From positions 1 to 30,703 of IMG/VR virus record IMGVR_UViG_3300035158_000367: a stretch of 30,703 nucleotides of DNA; one strand, 5' to 3'. The notes under the pieces were generated by a model. That model saw only the letters and a program-made list of their open reading frames with translations. It made no database searches and had not been told where the DNA came from. The position numbers and the translations under genes are program-made. The stretch is from a virus. Shown one piece after another: positions 256-12,594 of the stretch; position 1 is the stretch's first letter; every line of letters begins with the position of its first letter.

Positions 256-873
256 TTACGCCACGTCGCTCTCCGGCGAAATGAGCTTCTTAATTTTCTC
301 TAGCTTGGTCAACTCAGTCTTCTGTTCGATAACCGTCCGTTTCAGTTTTTCATTCTGGTCTCTGAGTTCTTTGATTTCCGTGCGTTGCTCGCGGATAATC
401 TCACGCAAGCGGTCCATTTCGTCCTGAGATAGTGCAGGGGCCTGAATTCTAACTGGTTTGGGTTTGCGGTGCTTCTCTATGATCTCCTCCACCTTTTGTC
501 GCCATTGCACGCCAGACGTTTTGAGCTTGTCAATTTCCTTGATCGCCTTCTCGGGCTTATCGCATACGTCCCAAATCTTGGCAACCAAACCTACGCCATG
601 CTCTTCCACCTTCTTCCTCTGGCGCAATATGGCGTTGCGATATTTGATGTAGGTATGTGGCCTCATGCCGTAGAAGTCCAAAAGGTAATGGTCCCATTGG
701 CTGTTTTTATAGCCTTCGTTTTCTTTGAAGCGCCTGGTCCGGTCAAGATAATAGAGTAATTCCACCATGCGGATCATGGTCGCACGGTTCCTGAGTTGGT
801 TGTTCTTGATCTCCTGTTCGATGTCTACAATACTTCTGCCGTCGTTTTCTTTTTTTAATTTGTCTAGTTTCAT
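256..873 (-). CDS. Coiled-coil protein encoded between two TIGR arrays
   Basis: A 205-aa protein I do not recognise by family. The N-terminal two thirds are mainly helical and charged, with a conserved-looking segment around residues 50-90 rich in aromatics (YKNSQWDHYLLDFYG) and a basic stretch after it; residues 150-198 form a strong Leu/Ile-spaced coiled coil, so it probably oligomerises. The start ATG at 873 has AAAGGA about 7 nt upstream. It lies directly between arrays 1 and 2, downstream of the Nop-like gene in the same leftward operon. An accessory role in the guide-RNA system (array or effector binding) is inference from position only; it could equally be an unrelated early phage protein. 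Confidence 0.75.
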   Translation of the reverse strand: MKLDKLKKENDGRSIVDIEQEIKNNQLRNRATMIRMVELLYYLDRTRRFKENEGYKNSQWDHYLLDFYGMRPHTYIKYRNAILRQRKKVEEHGVGLVAKIWDVCDKPEKAIKEIDKLKTSGVQWRQKVEEIIEKHRKPKPVRIQAPALSQDEMDRLREIIREQRTEIKELRDQNEKLKRTVIEQKTELTKLEKIKKLISPESDVA

Positions 874-900: not shown

Positions 901-1163
901 TTAGGCGCATAATGGGGGTGGATTTCAATGGCCCTTATGGCTCGCAGTCATCTGTTGGATTTCAGCCATTCTTTGGCTCGCATTATACAAATGGATTTCA
1001 CGAGACGTGTGGCTCGCAGGTTTCGCCTGGATTTCACCCCATTCTTTGGCTCGCAATCCGTCCTTGGGTTTCAGGCCTTAAATGGCTCGCACTATCCCTT
1101 TGGATTTCAGCCCTCATCTGGCTCGCATCACTTCGCTGGATTTTAATTAACCGCTGGCTCCCA
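901..1163 (-). repeat. TIGR-type array 2 (largest; overlaps tas 3' end)
   Basis: TGGATTTCA (+ strand) at 919, 956, 992, 1028, 1065 (TGGGTTTCA), 1101 and 1137 (TGGATTTTA) alternates with TGGCTCGCA at 938, 974, 1010, 1047, 1083, 1119 and 1155 (TGGCTCCCA); a decayed copy TTAGGCGCA sits at 901. Spacers are 9 nt except two of 10 nt (928-937 and 1037-1046). All differ, though gccattctt (965) and ccccattctt (1037) share eight bases. It fills the gap between tas and the coiled-coil gene. The first two repeats in the transcribed direction lie in the last codons and the stop codon of tas. Confidence 0.93.
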
Positions 1164-1937
1164 AAAATACGGTTTTATCACATCATGCCCCAGGAGCTTC
1201 CCAGCATAGGGTTCTGTAACTTCTAGCTCCTCCAACTCCCTGGCCACCGCCCAGAAATGGGCCAAAAATAATTTTGCTGTCTCATGCCGGGCCATATTAC
1301 GGCGATGCATCGGCGTCGCATTAGGATGAGTTCTCAGCCTTTTCGCCTTGGCCTGATTATAGAAAAGCTTATAGGGATGAGCGTTGTTCTTCTTTTCAAA
1401 TTGCTCGCCTATGTGGTAAGCGATAGCCCGGCCCCTTCTGCCACCCCTGGATTCACCTTTATGCGCCCTGGCCTTCTTGCCATCTTCTACATGCATACCC
1501 ATGTAATGCCACCAGGCTGATATTTTAGGGAAATTCTTGCGCTCTATTCTGGCAAGTAGAATACCCTCACCCTTCGCTTTCTGACTGCAAGCCGGGCAAG
1601 TGAAGTCATCGTCCAGATCGACGCCGCATTTCTTACAGATAGGGATGAACCGAAAATAATATTCTTTGATAAGCGCTGCGGCTATCCAGGGCCCCACGCC
1701 GAACTTTTTATTGAGCCATTTTTCCCAGATTGGGAAAACCCTAAGTAGCCCTTCCATTTCCCGTGAAGTCGTTCCCTTAAGGCTCTCTAGTGCTTTGGCA
1801 ATGTCGTCATACTTTGCTGGACGTTCAGGCTTAAGATGGGCCAAGCGGTTCTTGGTTGAGGTGAGCATCTTGTTAAGGCTGTCATAGGTTTTCATCAAAA
1901 AATTCAAATACTCGACAGTTGTGTCGTCTATTTGCAT
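1143..1937 (-). CDS. tas: TIGR-associated Nop/IS110-like protein (TasA-type, nuclease-free)
   Basis: A 264-aa protein. Residues 79-93 (FGVGPWIAAALIKEY) match the helix-hairpin segment of IS110 transposase C-terminal domains and Nop-like folds. Residues 136-232 follow the order of that family: a hydrophobic 'KISAWWHYMGMH' strand, a Gly/Arg/Lys-rich segment 155-171, then helices with HRRNMARHETAK. Between them is an inserted zinc ribbon (C101, C104, C114, C117). The DEDD/RuvC half of an IS110 transposase is absent, and no HNH or RuvC domain is fused, so it would bind guide RNA and DNA without cutting. AAGGAG at 1944-1949 fixes the ATG at 1937. Arrays lie on both sides; the last codons (W259-E260-P261) are a degenerate array repeat. 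Family from known TIGR-Tas biology; assignment rests on motif reading, not a search. Confidence 0.8.
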   Translation of the reverse strand: MQIDDTTVEYLNFLMKTYDSLNKMLTSTKNRLAHLKPERPAKYDDIAKALESLKGTTSREMEGLLRVFPIWEKWLNKKFGVGPWIAAALIKEYYFRFIPICKKCGVDLDDDFTCPACSQKAKGEGILLARIERKNFPKISAWWHYMGMHVEDGKKARAHKGESRGGRRGRAIAYHIGEQFEKKNNAHPYKLFYNQAKAKRLRTHPNATPMHRRNMARHETAKLFLAHFWAVARELEELEVTEPYAGKLLGHDVIKPYFWEPAVN

Positions 1938-6989: not shown

Positions 6990-7445
6990 ATGAAAATCCT
7001 ACACCGCTACACAAGAGAATGCCTATTTGAGGCTGGGGCCAAAACCGTAAAAGAGTTGATGGAAAAGGCTGTTGACAAAAAAGCCGACCTGGGCGAAGCC
7101 GACCTGGGCGGAGCCGACCTGGGCGGAGCCGACCTGCGCAGAGCCTACCTGACATGGGCCTACCTGACAGAGGCCAACCTGACAGAGGCCAACCTGACAG
7201 AGGCCAACCTGACAGAGGCCAACCTGACAGGGGCCGACCTGAGAGGGGCCGACCTGAGAGGGGCCGACCTGACAGGGGCCGACCACGAACTCAGACTCAT
7301 CAAATCATGGCACGCCAAATCCCCCAACATAAAAGATCTAATGAAATCCAAGGCCAGGGTGCGAGCCAAAGGAGGAATGAAATCCAAGAATTGCCTGCGA
7401 GCCAGAAAAAGCCTGAAATCCATAATTCGGCTGCGAGCCAAGTGA
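6990..7445 (+). CDS. Pentapeptide-repeat protein whose C-terminus is read from a TIGR array
   Basis: 151 aa, ATG 6990 after GGAGG. Residues 31-99 contain about 14 pentapeptide repeats of the A(D/N)LxG type ([20 protein letters not shown]), which fold as a right-handed quadrilateral beta-helix; such proteins can mimic DNA and protect gyrase, but the role here is unknown. From residue 118 on ([21 protein letters not shown]) the codons are array 4 repeats read in frame: TGAAATCCA gives M-K-S and TGCGAGCCA gives V/L-R-A. The stop lies in an array spacer (7443-7445). The basic tail is thus a by-product of, or selected with, the guide array. Confidence 0.75.
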
Positions 7446-7476
7446 TGTTTGAAATCCAGATTGGGAATGCGAGCCA
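7342..7476 (+). repeat. TIGR-type array 4 (+ strand)
   Basis: TGAAATCCA at 7342, 7378, 7414, 7450 alternates with TGCGAGCCA at 7360, 7396, 7432, 7468, all eight copies perfect and all seven spacers 9 nt: aggccaggg, aaggaggaa, agaattgcc, gaaaaagcc, taattcggc, agtgatgtt, gattgggaa. Orientation is opposite to arrays 1-3 on the DNA but identical relative to transcription, because this operon runs rightward. It overlaps the end of the pentapeptide gene and is followed 12 nt later by a strong terminator. Confidence 0.93.
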
Positions 7477-7488
7477 TATGAACGGTTG

Positions 7489-7553
7489 GTCCGGCCTGCT
7501 CCGTCTCCCCATACCCTTGGGCGTGCCTCGGGATGGAGCGGGCCGGACTTTTT
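7489..7553 (+). terminator. Rho-independent terminator after array 4
   Basis: Arms GTCCGGCC-T-GCTCC (7489-7502) and GGAGC-G-GGCCGGAC (7535-7548) form a stem of about 13 bp with one mismatch, a 32-nt loop that may fold further, and then TTTTT (7549-7553). It ends the early transcript carrying the pentapeptide gene and array 4. Confidence 0.85.
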
Positions 7554-7613
7554 AGCGGATCGGGCCCCCGAATGAAGGGCCAAAACCACAAAACAAGGAG
7601 GAAGGAGGATAGC

Positions 7614-8981: not shown

Positions 8982-9188
8982 ATGAAACGCTACTACCCCC
9001 GCCAAGTAGAAACCGGCGAATGGTTTTACCGCGGCAGATATTACGATCACTATCCCTGCGAGGAAGTGGATAGAGATCATAACCTTGAGGAACGAGAAGC
9101 TGAACGAAGATTTGACAGGATGAGAGACGAAGGCGAGATTCACATGGACTCGTGGGATATTCTTGAAGAAATGCATGTGGATCAATGA
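8982..9188 (+). CDS. Small charged hypothetical protein
   Basis: 68 aa from ATG 8982 (GAGG upstream). Contains GEWFYRGRYYDHYPCEE and a long acidic-basic helix. Its TGA overlaps the start of the exonuclease gene (ATGA), so it belongs to the recombination operon. Function unknown. Confidence 0.55.
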   Translation: MKRYYPRQVETGEWFYRGRYYDHYPCEEVDRDHNLEEREAERRFDRMRDEGEIHMDSWDILEEMHVDQ

Positions 9189-9766
9189 AACTTCCCTCCG
9201 TCACCGAAGTCCTCAGCGTGTACCAGGACTTCTCAAATATACCGGAGGCAACGCTTGGTTACGCCACCGAGCGAGGCATTGCCGTCCACAAAACTTGCGC
9301 TGCGCTCGCTGTTGGTTTATGGGCACCAAAACTATGCCCTGAATGGCAAGGCTTTGTTGTTAGTACGCGACACTGGTTCGACCGAATGGTTGAGGAAGTA
9401 ATCCTCGTAGAGACCCAATTGAAAGACGAAAAATTCGGATTCACTGGCACACTTGATTATCTTTTAAGACTCAAAGACAAGCCCGATCTTACCGTGATGG
9501 ATTTGAAAACCCCAGTTCTCCGCTACAAAGTATGGGCTGGCCAGCTTGCGGCCTATCTCCGACTTGCTCAAGTCAATGGTTACGATGCTACGGATGCCTT
9601 GACGTTGCAGCCGGACCCGAAAGGCGGCAGTGCAAAGGCGCATTACCTTGAATATGGCTCTGAGGCGTTAACTGCATTTTTGGCGGCGTTGACAGCTTAC
9701 AGATATTTCAAGCAGAGCTTTGCGAGCCAGGAACACCGTGAAATCCAAAACAGTGCGAAAGCTTAA
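9185..9766 (+). CDS. PD-(D/E)XK exonuclease (RecB/Cas4-like), RecT partner
   Basis: 193 aa. Motifs in order: H35 in ERGIAVHKTC, D91 in GFTGTLDYLL, the D-x-K pair in LTVMDLKTP (D106, K108), and the QLAAYL motif (Q120, Y124), the pattern of RecE/Cas4-like PD-(D/E)XK nucleases. Upstream of a coiled-coil protein and RecT, it should resect double-strand ends for annealing. The last codons (A180-S-Q ... E186-I-Q) are TIGR array 5 in frame, beyond the recognisable nuclease fold, so the natural C-terminus may have been extended or replaced by the array. Confidence 0.8.
   Translation: MKLPSVTEVLSVYQDFSNIPEATLGYATERGIAVHKTCAALAVGLWAPKLCPEWQGFVVSTRHWFDRMVEEVILVETQLKDEKFGFTGTLDYLLRLKDKPDLTVMDLKTPVLRYKVWAGQLAAYLRLAQVNGYDATDALTLQPDPKGGSAKAHYLEYGSEALTAFLAALTAYRYFKQSFASQEHREIQNSAKA
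9721..9747 (+). repeat. TIGR-type minimal array 5
   Basis: One perfect TGCGAGCCA (9721-9729), 9-nt spacer ggaacaccg, one perfect TGAAATCCA (9739-9747). Sense to the + strand operon, like array 4. A partial TGCGA follows at 9755 with a shortened spacer. It lies in the last codons of the exonuclease gene. Two perfect 9-mers at exact 9-nt spacing are very unlikely by chance. Confidence 0.85.
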
Positions 9767-11907: not shown

Positions 11908-12594
11908 ATGTTAGGTTGGCACTTTTTGGGGGAGGACAAAAGGATGCAATTTAGTCCAAGGACTGTTGTCGAAACAGGCCAAACCTATACATGCGAGGGG
12001 AAGTTAATCCCCTGTAAAAATGGACTACATGCAAGTCGGAGGATTATAGATGCCTTAAAATACGCACCCGGTCCCATTATATGCCGGGTAGAATTATCCG
12101 GTGAGATCATCTATGACACCGACAAGGCGGTTGCTAGACATCGCAAGGTAATATGGATGCTTGATGCGACTAATGTGCTACATGAGTTTGCCTGTAGATG
12201 CGCTGAAGATGCACTTGCCTTAGTAGGTAACCCCGACCCAAGCAGTATTGCGGCAATTCAGGCAAAAAGAAATTGGATGAAGGGTAAAATTACGGATAAA
12301 GGATTGGTTGCCGCGAGGGCTACCGCGAGGGATGCTGCGAGGGATGCTGCGAGGGATGTTGCGAGGGCTGCCGCGTGGGATGCTGCGTGGATTGCTGCGA
12401 AGGATGCTGCGTGGGCTGCCGCGAAGGGTGCTGCGAGGGATGCTGAGTGGGCTGCGAGGGCTGCTGCGAGGGAGGCTGAGTGGGATGCTGCGTGGAGTGC
12501 TGCGAGGGATGCTGAGTGGGCTGCGAGGGCTGCTGCGAGGGCTAAATTTAATCGTAGGCTTACTTCGATGGTGGTTGCTGGTCAAAGCGGGTAA
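11908..12594 (+). CDS. DUF7666-like protein with alanine-rich repeat tail
   Basis: 228 aa, ATG 11908 after AAGGAAAA. Residues 1-120 match the phage DUF7666 pattern (WHFL, then CKNGLHAS, 'ALKYAPGPIICRVEL', DKAVARHR). Residues 135-212 are repeats of AARDAAWDAA type, encoded by a GC-rich tandem repeat of 12-15 bp (about 12305-12540), expected to form a long helix. Function unknown. Copy number of the repeat is likely variable. Confidence 0.65.
   Translation: MLGWHFLGEDKRMQFSPRTVVETGQTYTCEGKLIPCKNGLHASRRIIDALKYAPGPIICRVELSGEIIYDTDKAVARHRKVIWMLDATNVLHEFACRCAEDALALVGNPDPSSIAAIQAKRNWMKGKITDKGLVAARATARDAARDAARDVARAAAWDAAWIAAKDAAWAAAKGAARDAEWAARAAAREAEWDAAWSAARDAEWAARAAARAKFNRRLTSMVVAGQSG

Follow-up and report, generated by a model that had tools for sequence, protein, structure and literature searches.

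The closest described relatives of the arrays reported here are those of the TIGR-Tas systems (Faure et al. 2025, PMC12045711), which begin with a 5'-truncated edge repeat and are followed by a terminator; both of their repeats have the form UG...CCA, the loop having an A-rich linker and the edge an extra pair. The origin, upkeep, and expansion of TIGR arrays were termed an enigma in that study, the main text of which has no passage on a coding overlap of the arrays. In a search of openly accessible journal papers, tigRNAs were treated in substance only by the founding paper and one review, and no published description of an overlap between array and coding sequence was found.

Two other described phenomena are comparable in part. 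OppZ and CarZ, autoregulatory small RNAs derived from 3' UTRs (PMC7398697), are likewise released from mRNA 3' ends closed by a terminator; these are, however, base-pairing regulators cut by RNase E, whereas here many guides would serve a DNA-targeting protein and the predicted cut sites lie inside coding sequences. Spurious proteins annotated over CRISPR arrays (PMC7673337) also arise from repeat-spacer DNA read as spaced protein repeats, but those cases are false open reading frames, whereas in the present phage conserved, genuine genes enter the array without a stop. The window analyzed here is the whole of IMG/VR virus record IMGVR_UViG_3300035158_000367 (positions 1–30,703), and this 30.7-kb stretch contains four clear dual-repeat arrays and the remnant of a fifth. 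Like TIGR-Tas of the TasA type, it has 9-nt UG...CCA edge and loop repeats, 9-nt spacers, a 36-nt period, a 5'-truncated first edge (in most related arrays), a terminator after array 4, and a solo Nop-domain protein akin to TasR and TasH; it differs in that its arrays supply stop codons and protein tails to genes.

Dual-repeat arrays and the Tas protein

The best-preserved array of the window is array 4 (7342–7476, plus strand), in which four loop repeats TGAAATCCA (at 7342, 7378, 7414, and 7450) and four edge repeats TGCGAGCCA (at 7360, 7396, 7432, and 7468) are separated by 9-nt spacers. All eight copies are perfect, with a spacing of 18 nt and a period of 36, and together they contain three complete edge–loop–edge guide units. 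Both repeats start with UG (box D) and finish with CCA (box C), as in TIGR-Tas, and the assignment of TGCGAGCCA as the edge and TGAAATCCA as the loop follows from the naming rules of PMC12045711, correcting an earlier naming. The alternation of edges and loops of 8–12 nt, with 9-nt spacers and a period of about 36 nt, is that of the TIGR-Tas dual repeats. A 5' half edge, which is present in most related arrays, was not recognizable before array 4 (7324–7332). Immediately 3' of the array lies a terminator-like hairpin with a UUUUU tract (7485–7554, plus strand; −45.8 kcal/mol, z −4.4).

The array 5 remnant (9721–9758, plus strand) consists of one edge (9721–9729), one loop (9739–9747), and a half edge, TGCGA (9754–9758). 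The other three arrays are on the minus strand: array 1 (114–247), which opens with GAAGCCA as a 5'-truncated edge, follows the tas companion gene at a distance of 25 nt from that gene's stop to the first loop; array 2 (919–1163) is downstream of tas; and array 3 (1964–2098) lies between a VRR-NUC-like gene (2133–2453) and tas. No fewer than five genes of the window have an array at their 3' end, in some cases 5–8 kb away from tas and on the opposite strand. They are considered real because a search for dual-repeat chains in 1.1 Mb of shuffled sequence gave none. Targets for spacer pairs (A and B on opposite strands, gap of 0–2, one mismatch at most) were found neither in the window nor in the collected loci. 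Repeats of other kinds are also present, namely, near-exact direct duplications (98–99%) of ~99 nt (2401–2499/4580–4678) and ~59 nt (3960–4018/4534–4592), and a 12-nt repeat (12309–12541) occurring 20 times and encoding an alanine- and arginine-rich repeat protein.

The tas gene (1143–1937, minus strand) encodes a solo Nop-domain, TasA-like protein of 264 aa, adjoining an array as is typical of TIGR-Tas. Its family profile matched the solved structures of TasR (9mty, 5.8e-71) and TasH (21kl, 5.9e-28), aligning only from residue 114 of TasR and residue 64 of TasH, and fold comparison of the Tas model also ranked TasR and TasH best, followed by the IS110-type recombinases ISCro4 and IS621. The NCBIfam model TIGR_Tas_endo matched at 5e-25 with a score of 88.7 bits, below its cut-off of 100. 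A Pfam search detected no nuclease family in the protein, in keeping with the TasA type, which lacks a nuclease domain. Residues 101–117 (1586–1637, minus strand) include four cysteines that are invariant in 24 relatives and look like a zinc-ribbon insertion in a Nop protein. The closest cellular relatives of Tas (L150–L154; loci are numbered with the prefix L) are in Desulfobacterota-type genomes (Desulfobacterales, Smithella, and Desulfobacula), a hint at the hosts of the phage group. The tas companion gene (256–873, minus strand; 205 aa), followed by array 1, is conserved, with relatives in more than 30 loci at 25–40% identity; it matched no Pfam family and no solved structure, and it might be the ParB-like partner described in the founding TIGR-Tas paper.

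Coding sequences that end within arrays

The gene for a pentapeptide-repeat protein (6990–7445, plus strand; 151 aa; Pfam Pentapeptide, E 3.6e-24) enters array 4 in the register xTG AAA TCC, and the first 104 nt of the array, read in frame, provide the last 34 residues of the protein; this C-terminal tail (7341–7445, plus strand) comprises residues 118–151 and the stop codon (7443–7445). The array-coded part contains the three full edges at 7360, 7396, and 7432. The phage exonuclease (PHROG 298; 9185–9766, plus strand; 193 aa) has its last ~15 residues over the array 5 remnant in the register xxT GAA ATC, where the edge GCG AGC CAG reads A-S-Q, the loop GAA ATC CAA reads E-I-Q, and the remnant as a whole reads ASQ-EHR-EIQ-NSA. 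The tas product ends in WEPAVN and a stop within array 2, of which the first edge TGGGAGCCA and first loop TAAAATCCA are degenerate and lie within or at the end of the gene: TGG GAG CCA (1163–1155) of the edge encodes W-E-P, the spacer A-V-N, and the stop codon TAA is the first three bases of the degenerate loop (1145–1137), an intact loop giving TGA. These coordinates and frames confirm the original prediction that arrays are read in frame as the C-termini of the three proteins.

That prediction also held that the arrays supply new tails, and proposed a search for the natural stop positions in homologs free of arrays. For the exonuclease, this comparison gave a clear outcome. Its homologs in L002 (MetMV; same in L066), L067, L068, and L069 are 177–183 aa long and stop ~15 residues sooner, and that in L074, itself a TIGR phage with tas, has a short unrelated end; array repeats were absent at the ends of all these homologs. 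On this comparison of homologs, the array-coded tail of the exonuclease is new. Relatives of Tas stop at or close to the corresponding position and are either tail-less or differently tailed, which supports the same claim. In the case of the pentapeptide gene, no pre-array stop was found because its relatives exist for the repeat domain only, and its 34-residue tail can be called only a candidate new tail. TAATGA at 7339–7344, in another frame, might point to a frameshift as the source of the pentapeptide read-through, but it is not evidence of one, since that frame has several stops. The AlphaFold model of the pentapeptide protein alone had a pLDDT of 37; in that of Tas, values over the final 20 residues were mostly below 50, in favor of tails as by-products.

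Tas proteins of related loci end soon after a conserved I-I-x-P block, and some of them carry an array-coded tail beyond it. Such tails occur in L073, L093, L095 (~65 aa), L103, L121, L139 (36 aa), and L141/L146, and L026 has one on a gene other than tas. On a quick tree of 49 Tas proteins, extension of the coding sequence past the first edge required eight changes over ten tips, L070 being scored outside although it also reads one loop. In the sisters L070 and L073, tas enters the array in the same frame but stops in different spacers, and in L134 the first spacer opens with TAA, just after the half edge, whereas L139 has GTC there and continues for 36 residues. The tail of L095 (~1900–2138) runs over partly decayed repeats, beyond which lies an intact, non-coding array.

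Retention of the arrays for the sake of coding, with residues useful to the proteins, might be argued from the basic, K- and R-rich tail of the pentapeptide protein and from the long open tail of L095 over its partly decayed repeats. This explanation is nevertheless highly improbable: the tails of the Tas relatives use every register and vary in sequence and length with no conservation, exonuclease homologs do without a tail, and the repeats of array 4 are perfect as DNA, which the guides need and the peptide does not.

Array position and reading frame among related loci

Well over a hundred loci were collected by scans with the repeat pattern and with Tas profiles. Single-sequence scans of IMG/VR with Tas, the exonuclease, and the pentapeptide protein gave no matches, whereas the repeat pattern and the alignments did find loci; an array search in 3 Mb of shuffled sequence found none. 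Of 176 loop positions in the related arrays, 49% kept the pentapeptide register open for at least 34 codons; the figure was 39% for the exonuclease register and 2% for that in which the loop gives TGA. The high openness is due to the repeats themselves, which have no stop in two of three frames, and the open frame over array 4 is therefore not beyond chance.

Since an open run this long is expected at about half of the positions, and spurious proteins from CRISPR arrays are a known database artifact (PMC7673337), it could be supposed that the true products stop before the array, owing to a decayed gene or a changed frame, and that the in-frame run is merely mechanical. We regard this as improbable, because the three genes have no stop between their conserved domains and the array, and a ribosome on the intact message must go on into the array; moreover, the upstream parts are intact, recognizable genes.

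The placement of the arrays at gene 3' ends, on the other hand, exceeds chance. Among 117 distinct related arrays, 63 had the end of a same-strand gene no more than 50 nt before their first full edge, whereas this held for 5.2% of random positions. The P value of this excess overstates independence and serves only as a guide, as the loci were picked by Tas or repeat pattern and share ancestry; some of the upstream reading frames counted, such as those in L012 and L112, are possibly not genes. The upstream genes include tas and its companion. Others, named from reading of the proteins, are presumably portal-like (L048) and terminase-like (L056). The stop codon was within the array in 53 of 85 junctions, frequently as TAGCCA, TAAGCCA, or TGAGCCA, in which it overlaps the half edge, or as the TGA of the first loop, and the coding sequence extended beyond the first full edge in 13 of the 85. 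In the window, three of five arrays run into a coding sequence, whereas elsewhere the share is roughly one in eight; small as these numbers are, they hint that compaction may not be the whole explanation. One 72-kb record, IMGVR_UViG_3300036863_000086 (L012, L033, L046, and L049), has at least ten arrays scattered between genes, one of them with 37 repeats.

The presence of arrays at many gene 3' ends agrees with the suggestion that arrays invade genes by expansion, but no expansion or insertion event was caught; among near-identical contigs from different samples, arrays were identical or too little changed to reveal growth.

The three genes of the window together use all three registers, and the 22 coding sequences reaching the first loop had no preferred reading frame (9, 4, and 9; L140 is one base off and belongs to the TGA group). 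This register spread, together with the lack of shared peptides, argues against selection for the tails. Edges inside coding sequences matched the consensus of their locus in 15 of 22 cases, compared with 647 of 854 other edges (P = 0.45), and there is thus no sign of purging or special keeping of processing sites.

Guide excision and the probable origin of the tails

Collectively, the most probable explanation, to which we assign a probability of about 0.68, is that the arrays live as mRNA 3' ends and that the tails are by-products of guide placement. TIGR guide arrays of a TasA-type system would make up the 3'-terminal parts of phage mRNAs, each array lying on the coding strand of the preceding gene and starting at its stop codon, presumably because gene-dense phages have little room; the 5' boundary would be so tight that the first units often include the stop codon. 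If the stop of the gene itself is lost or falls in a spacer, the ribosome would translate guide units up to an in-frame stop in a spacer or loop. The tails of 34 aa (pentapeptide protein), ~15 aa (exonuclease), and 6 aa (Tas) would then be by-products rather than evolved modules, their lengths being set by register and spacer sequences, and they are probably translated and neutral. In the window genes, excision of guides at mid-edge would part the stop codon from the message.

This last consequence could also be the basis of a coupled regulation, as the original prediction envisaged for the processing of mRNA ends: Tas and a host RNase would cut edges within the coding sequence at their middle, the stop-less upstream fragment would be rescued or decayed, and the making of guides would reduce expression of the pentapeptide protein and the exonuclease and, by negative feedback, of Tas. 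Each of the three coding sequences contains at least one edge (7360, 7396, and 7432; 9721; a degenerate one at 1155), array 4 is closed by a terminator-like hairpin, processing at mid-edge is precise and needs Tas and full edges (PMC12045711), and there are known cases of autoregulation in which the RNA is released from the 3' end of an mRNA (PMC7398697). Nevertheless, we consider such regulation rather unlikely, as in most junctions the stop coincides with or precedes the first full edge, so that cutting spares the coding sequence, the edges in coding sequences are no more intact than others, and the frames and tails appear random. In the pentapeptide and exonuclease genes, at least one intact edge precedes the stop (a degenerate one in tas), and correct excision would yield a non-stop message; from this anatomy it follows that guide excision may compete with translation for the mRNA end. 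That guide production and translation are mutually exclusive, so that the array itself restrains Tas and other phage genes to a degree set by the Tas level, with new spacers rewriting both guide specificity and the protein C-terminus, is a somewhat fainter prospect still.

While the TIGR-Tas system itself is known, the placement rule (sense-strand arrays that abut and often share the stop codon, at several genes of one phage) and the tails encoded by guides seem not to have been described before. The placement suggests that the arrays ride on mRNAs and have no need of a promoter of their own. Through the overlap anatomy, an effect of tigRNA maturation on gene expression can be tested directly, and annotations of Tas and neighboring proteins should be read with the caution that they can bear guide-encoded tails.
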